Shown piece by piece: positions 35,717 to 36,720 of a stretch of DNA of 64,000 nucleotides (position 1 is the stretch's first letter; each line of letters opens with the position of its first letter). This DNA is from Bacillota bacterium (lineage in GTDB: Bacteria; Bacillota; Clostridia; Lachnospirales; Lachnospiraceae): the NCBI GenBank assembly GCA_029224465.1, contig JAQXUQ010000006.1:186001-250000 (forward strand), in the 5' to 3' direction. The notes under the pieces were generated by a model. It made no database searches, was not told where the DNA came from, and was given only the letters and a program-made list of their open reading frames with translations. A program made the translations under genes and the position numbers.

Positions 35717-36346
35717 ATGGCCATATCTAAGGTAACGTATGCCGGAAATACGTTGATTGATCTTACAGGGGACACGGTTACACCGGAGAAACTGCTTTCC
35801 GGGGCGACTGCGCATGCAGCGAACGGCGAAAAAATCACAGGCATTGTTGAGGATAAAAAGGGCGAGCTGGAGGCACAGATCGCAGATTTGCGTAGTCAGA
35901 TAAGTTCGTTAAATGCGAATTTAGCGAATACAATGTATCCGGTTGGATCAATCTACATATCTGTAAATGCAACAAACCCATCCGAACTGTTTGGCGGCAC
36001 GTGGGAGCAGATCAAGGGCAGATTCCTTCTGGCCGCTGGAAATACATATGCTGCTGGTTCAATAGGTGGCGAGGCGGCACATACACATAAATACGGTTTC
36101 CAGTATGGTGCATACTATGGAGCAATTTCAATGGAGCAGGATGCTCAATCCGGCGCACTGCAGGGCGGGACTGGAACCCCAGTAGGTTCGGCATACACCG
36201 CTGACACAAATTCAGACGTCAACAATAATGCTACGTCGGCTAAACAGACTTTAAGGTTGTCGCATTACAAATCTATCGCTGATACGTCGTCTGCAAGCAA
36301 TATGCCCCCGTACCTAGCTGTTTATACGTGGAAACGTACTGCCTAG
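35717..36346 (+). CDS. tail fibre/receptor-binding protein, currently expressed C-terminus
   Basis: MAISKVTYAGNTLIDLTGDTV N-terminus paralogous to the previous gene; YPVGSIYISVNATNPSELFGGTWEQIKGRFLLAAG collar-like C-terminus; 23-bp IR at 35906-35928. Confidence 0.85.
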   Translation: MAISKVTYAGNTLIDLTGDTVTPEKLLSGATAHAANGEKITGIVEDKKGELEAQIADLRSQISSLNANLANTMYPVGSIYISVNATNPSELFGGTWEQIKGRFLLAAGNTYAAGSIGGEAAHTHKYGFQYGAYYGAISMEQDAQSGALQGGTGTPVGSAYTADTNSDVNNNATSAKQTLRLSHYKSIADTSSASNMPPYLAVYTWKRTA

Positions 36347-36720
36347 GCCAGCACATACGCAACAAATCCCCAGCACCATCCGCCGGAGTTAAAACTCACA
36401 GCATGGGTATTTATCTTTATTACGTTGTCAACAACCCAGAGTTCCCCCGTTAATCCGGATGTCTGCTCCTGAATAATACCGACCGGATAATTCGGCCTTG
36501 TTTTCGCTGGATAGTATCCGGATTTTAATTTTGCTAAGGCAAAATCATTCCACTGCGGGATGCTAATACCATGCATTCCGAATGATAGCCAGCATAGAAC
36601 GATTTTTCCTTGTATGGCTACATTGCAGAATTGGATATCGAATCCGTTTTGTGCGTCCGCAATGTCGGATAACGGCAAAACGTGTAACGCGGAATGGTTC
36701 GCTAAATTCGCATTTAACGA
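35906..36720. other. invertible DNA segment (tail-fibre switching cassette)
   Basis: perfect inverted repeats TCGTTAAATGCGAATTTAGCGAA at 35906-35928 (+) and 36698-36720 (-), in the same reading frame relative to both fibre C-termini. Confidence 0.88.
36343..36720 (-). CDS. silent alternative tail-fibre C-terminal cassette (no own start)
   Basis: frame SLNANLANHSALHVLPLSDIADAQNGFDIQFCNVAIQGKIVLCWLSFGMHGISIPQWNDFALAKLKSGYYPAKTRPNYPVGIIQEQTSGLTGELWVVDNVIKINTHAVSFNSGGWCWGFVAYVLA; typical phage fibre C-terminal beta-sandwich sequence. Confidence 0.85.
   Translation of the reverse strand, partial: SLNANLANHSALHVLPLSDIADAQNGFDIQFCNVAIQGKIVLCWLSFGMHGISIPQWNDFALAKLKSGYYPAKTRPNYPVGIIQEQTSGLTGELWVVDNVIKINTHAVSFNSGGWCWGFVAYVLA

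Follow-up and report, generated by a model that had tools for sequence, protein, structure and literature searches.

A tail-fibre tip cassette in a Lachnospiraceae prophage, bounded by dif-like sites and probably inverted by the host Xer recombinase

The fibre gene, its inverted repeat and its two tips

We analysed a 64,000-nucleotide stretch of DNA from a Lachnospiraceae bacterium (assembly GCA_029224465.1, contig JAQXUQ010000006.1, positions 186,001 to 250,000; here called the window), in which the final structural gene of a prophage encodes a tail fibre, its 3' end lying in an invertible cassette. As currently oriented, this gene (35717..36346, plus strand) encodes a protein of 209 amino acids ending in ...YTWKRTA, with a coiled-coil trunk encoded up to ~35905 and a Gp10_C tip beyond it. 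A confident structural prediction, made on a sister protein with the same trunk, places the trunk helix at residues 23-72, so that it would end at the recombination site described below.

The first-pass annotation of this locus had described a perfect 23-bp inverted repeat, and one copy indeed lies inside the fibre gene (35906-35928) and the other beyond its end (36698-36720). The window holds no further match with up to three mismatches (0 expected from shuffled sequence), and there are just two copies in the 2.55-Mb genome assembly. The repeat had also been called a near-dyad, a description that can be sharpened, as the real unit is 24 bp long. The inner site, TTCGTTAAA-TGCGAA-TTTAGCGAA (35905..35928, plus strand), encodes SLNANLA, and the outer site, read on the minus strand (36698..36721), is GTCGTTAAA-TGCGAA-TTTAGCGAA, the two differing in their first base alone (GTCG in the outer copy).

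Between the two sites, on the minus strand, lies a silent alternative tip of 117 amino acids (HSALHVLPL...AYVLA; 36343..36696), which is in frame with the repeat and has no start codon ahead of it. The two tips are intact open frames that converge tail to tail, their stop codons overlapping, as had been noted, in GCCTAGGC (36341..36348). Inverting the cassette in silico replaced the 209-residue form with an open fibre protein of 188 amino acids, ...ISSLNANLAN-HSALHVLPL...GWCWGFVAYVLA, the product anticipated by the first-pass annotation; a second in-silico inversion, which took 1 bp more on each side, changed one flanking residue. Such two-state inversion explains the locus without recourse to a diversity-generating retroelement. 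It had further been suggested that the alternation is between a collar-like and a beta-sandwich tip. The former description held, since the current tip matches the tail-collar-like Gp10_C domain (PF21939; residues 70-208, Pfam E-value 2.1e-15). The latter found no support: the silent tip has no relative in Pfam, PHROGs, phage GenBank records or the PDB, nor in 146 relative genomes or in named genomes, and its AlphaFold model, with a predicted local distance difference test (pLDDT) score of ~30, is unreliable. Among viral contigs, it is 83-87% identical to tips of L003 and L007, to which we now turn.

Inversion in sister phages and the rule of the spacer

When viral contigs were scanned with the 23-bp repeat, L003 was the one hit. 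It shares 97.3% identity with window positions 24164-35929 and, from the site onward, 86.8% with the reverse strand of window positions 36720-36299, the site being common to both segments. Because the alignment changes strand at the site, the tip that is silent in the window occupies the expressed position in L003, whose fibre gene reads trunk-SLNANLAN-HSALHVLPL...AYVLA. The opposite orientation predicted by the first-pass annotation is therefore present in a sister phage, with its breakpoint inside the repeat, and comparison of the two phages establishes inversion and shows that the switch operates in nature. It is very improbable that the cassette of the window strain is a fossil that inverted formerly and is now locked. 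The single orientation in the assembly and the one arm mismatch in the outer site (GTCG) would suit such a fossil, but both tips remain open, the 23-bp repeat has no mismatch, and the inverted form occurs in a sister that is 97% identical.

The position of the crossover is revealed by a second group of viral records, most of which, like the other viral records used here, are fragments. The fibre locus of L007 (7976-9051) is a small shufflon in which three sites accompany three alternative tips, and L006, L012 and L014 are rearranged relatives of L007. In L006, a hybrid site, TTCGTGAAA-GTCTGA-TTTATCGAA, joins the outer flank to tip A, one half deriving from the L007 outer site and the other from the L007 trunk site; L012 lacks tip A and has a junction that combines the trunk half-site with the Gp10_C half-site. 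From these hybrid half-sites, comparison of L006, L007 and L012 shows that crossovers fall inside the 6-bp centre. In L014 (at 8707) and L012 (at 10522), the silent tip has been mostly deleted, apparently when a pseudo-site close to the tip end, TTTATCGCG, took part in recombination.

The site can be written as a 24-bp dyad, TTCGYTAAA-N6-TTTARCGAA, and scanning viral contigs with this pattern brought to light additional inverted pairs whose two centres agree: L149/L171 (spacer GGAATA), L155 (TGATGC), L161 (CAACAG), L191 (GATTAA) and L166 (14-1249), which has two nested pairs, with CTCTAA outside and CAATGG inside. The nested double switch of L166 amounts to a two-level choice of tip. L149 and L171 were considered as a further example of a flip and rejected, both being in the same orientation. 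The window genome itself contains two more prophage fibre cassettes of the same architecture, on contigs C11 (spacer CAACGG) and C23 (TAAAGG). In-silico inversion of matched pairs swapped the C terminus in frame in nearly all cases, with more intricate arrangements in L007, L012 and L014. With few exceptions, the site is translated as S-L-[NK]-x-x-L-[AT].

Comparing the two sites of each pair gave differences at 31/216 arm positions and at 0/72 spacer positions (Fisher p = 1e-4), the latter count being biased by pairs such as L155 and L161 that were found by requiring spacer identity. Between cassettes, the arms differ by 10% and the spacers by 67%. An unbiased scan revealed no high-scoring pair that lacked a matched-spacer partner, bar one weak pair in L244. 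Coincidental similarity among homologous proteins sharing an SLNxxLAN hinge was rejected as the origin of the sites, because the arms are kept at the codon level across unrelated trunks, the spacers match within pairs only, and half-sites recombine. Constant arms, around a spacer constrained only to match that of the partner site, are the pattern expected of a tyrosine recombinase, and the window site fits an Xer-type enzyme with a 6-bp spacer.

The host dif site and the candidate recombinase

Outside the fibre cassettes, the window genome matches the site best at AACTATTCGCAAAA-GGCAGC-TTTTACGAATAGTT (C6:358167), 2.0 kb from the single Xer-type gene of the genome (C6:360180-361271). This gene encodes a 365-amino-acid XerS/XerA-like tyrosine recombinase that resembles XerS, XerA and XerC/D while scoring below every curated cut-off; its score against the XerS model NCBIfam NF003462 (193.7 bits, cut-off 267) makes it a member of the Xer family and not a curated XerS equivalog. 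Among 61 genomes of the genus, the site occurs in 31, in 26 of which xer was also detected, and site and gene lie on one contig no more than 10 kb apart in 21 of those 26; a reversed control pattern matched in 3 genus genomes. Scanning named genomes with an extended site returned 80 loci from Lachnospiraceae, Christensenella and other Clostridia. An Xer gene was present in 48, with the site upstream of it in 44, and none was found in the other 32 within the 8 kb examined per locus. The complete genome AP025576 has a single exact site, at 3,620,084 of 7.29 Mb (49.6%), half-way round the chromosome, and the GC skew of genome G014 becomes negative in the vicinity of the site. Proximity to xer, the half-way position and the change in GC skew are together the expected behaviour of dif. 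Thus, what appears to be the chromosomal dif of Clostridia with a single Xer is built on the same arms as the cassette sites and lies close to both the xer gene and the replication terminus. Fibre sites share their arms with this dif and their spacers only with their partners, as comparison shows, and the 6-bp spacer is a feature of the dif-type dyad in these Clostridia.

Two further observations concern dif-like sites elsewhere. Second sites with an ACTA flank occur in genus genomes (L243:3836, L244:3907, L246:3741), possibly on plasmids, chromids or integrated elements, and inovirus-like elements sit at a perfect dif-like site upstream of an Xer-like gene in L179 (at 5947) and L136 (at 2130), an arrangement that suggests Xer-mediated integration in Clostridia.

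We conclude that the host Xer is the probable agent of fibre-cassette inversion, acting at dif-like sites whose spacers are private to each cassette. The single host enzyme, whose normal role here would be the resolution of chromosome dimers at dif, would bind the dif-like arms within the fibre gene and carry out strand exchange within the private 6-bp spacer. An 817-bp segment would thereby be flipped by recombination of one 24-bp site with the other. The frame would be kept through SLNANLAN, a short hinge where the trunk coiled coil ends, and the Gp10_C tip would give way to the unrelated 117-residue tip, with a presumed change of receptor and host range. Spacer mismatch would insulate each switch, such that a site pairs with its partner alone, to the exclusion of dif (GGCAGC) and of the switches of other prophages in the same cell.

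Several points weigh against this proposal, in addition to the bias in the spacer count. The outer ACTA/TAGT bases of the host dif are absent from the fibre sites, and binding and cutting of these sites by Xer are deduced from sequence. Recombination in the XerS systems characterised so far is FtsK-dependent and tuned for dimer resolution (PMC5357621), and given that dependence, inversion far from the terminus would not be self-evident. Finally, phage-encoded enzymes may take the place of the host Xer, as the cassette-like phage L128 has an Xer-like gene of its own, encoding a XerA-like protein of 336 amino acids (2055-3065) and lying ~0.9 kb from its fibre sites. This last gene is what favours a dedicated Xer-like tyrosine recombinase of phages or mobile elements as the general agent, the host dif merely sharing site ancestry. 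We regard that as unlikely, since a search for PF00589 found no tyrosine recombinase in the window prophage, the window genome has one intact Xer-type gene beside one Tn916-like gene and a fragment, and a single tyrosine recombinase is carried by each of the L007, L155 and L171 records, that of L007 and that of L171 being integrase-like.

The gene content of the window prophage bears on the remaining candidates. The prophage (5299..37029, ~5.3-37.0 kb), in a gut-type host, has phage genes throughout and is seated at the 3' end of the transfer-messenger RNA (tmRNA) gene (4953-5303), with a short attL/attR-like repeat, TCCACTAA, at 5299 and 37003 and similar sequence after both copies. Its only detected recombinase is a large serine integrase (5295..6731, minus strand; PF00239/PF07508/PF13408; PHROG integrase, 3e-103). 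This integrase was rejected as the inverting enzyme, the integrases of cassette phages being unrelated (serine in the window, tyrosine in L007). The first-pass annotation had likened the cassette to those of phages Mu and P1; as to mechanism the likeness fails, there being no Gin/Cin-like invertase by the cassette. A small serine invertase could instead act in trans: the prophage on C11, which also bears a cassette, encodes, beside its terminase, a 189-amino-acid homologue of DNA invertases (L113:7946-8515; phrog_125), and a dyad of ~24-26 bp would fit a serine enzyme too. Yet none of 16 cassette-bearing or related viral records, most of them fragments, holds a Resolvase-family gene, and this led us to reject such an enzyme as the main explanation. 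Moreover, the whole 6-bp centre is kept within pairs, the arms agree with those of Xer/dif sites in the neighbourhood of xer genes, and the centre of the window site is a palindromic CG, making a serine invertase improbable and, in our estimate, slightly more so than a phage-borne Xer.

Other features surround the cassette. The structural protein encoded immediately upstream (35139..35708, plus strand; phrog_13589) begins with the same N-terminal module as the fibre protein, seen in the DNA as a 63-nt direct repeat (76%). A small open reading frame for a putative membrane peptide (36752-36847) separates the cassette from attR, and two tandem homologous amidohydrolase-like genes (37300-39968) lie upstream of a branched-chain-type ABC transporter operon.

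Significance and relation to known systems

We think it fairly likely, though less so than the proposal for the cassettes themselves, that the host dimer-resolution Xer is a common switching engine for phages of Lachnospiraceae and other Clostridia, with many dif-like prophage fibre switches per cell kept apart by private 6-bp spacers; coupling to division may exist. Such a system would offer phages without an invertase a route to vary their receptor-binding tips and would tie tip variation to the bacterial chromosome-segregation machinery. It would also make fibre switches predictable from sequence, as dif arms in a fibre gene with a matching spacer. The comparison also yields a candidate dif for Clostridia with a single Xer, together with a naturally occurring collection of recombination spacers that appear to be orthogonal. 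The literature searched contained no report of Xer/dif-driven tail-fibre inversion; the programmed-inversion survey of Milman 2023, which may list related loci, fell outside that coverage.

Phages Mu (G segment) and P1 (C segment) have invertible tail-fibre segments that are switched by the serine invertases Gin and Cin. The window cassette resembles them in its inverted repeats, one of them in the fibre gene, in the swap of a C terminus and in its convergent silent tip; it differs in having no adjacent serine invertase, in its dif-like site with a 6-bp spacer and in the host recombinase as the likely enzyme. In shufflons, exemplified by R64 and its recombinase Rci, the closest likeness is to L007, with three sites and three tips, and to L166, with two nested pairs, whereas the window cassette is a simple two-site switch and separate spacers define separate channels.

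The single-recombinase Xer/dif systems (XerS/difSL, XerH/difH and XerA; PMC5357621) share with our system a dyad site, one Xer gene and a dif near xer and the terminus. The window sites, in contrast, are inverted, lie inside a prophage fibre gene and alter coding sequence. Phase variation in Ureaplasma and Mycoplasma, for example at the mba locus, has been proposed to use Xer-type recombinases and short inverted repeats to vary surface proteins (PMC3599477); these are cellular surface loci rather than phage fibres, and no link to chromosomal dif is claimed for them. Integrative mobile elements exploiting Xer (IMEX), such as phage CTXphi, use the host XerCD to integrate at dif (PMC5357621). The window phage would likewise exploit the host Xer through a dif-like site, but it would do so to invert a fibre tip, having its own serine integrase and its seat in the tmRNA gene.
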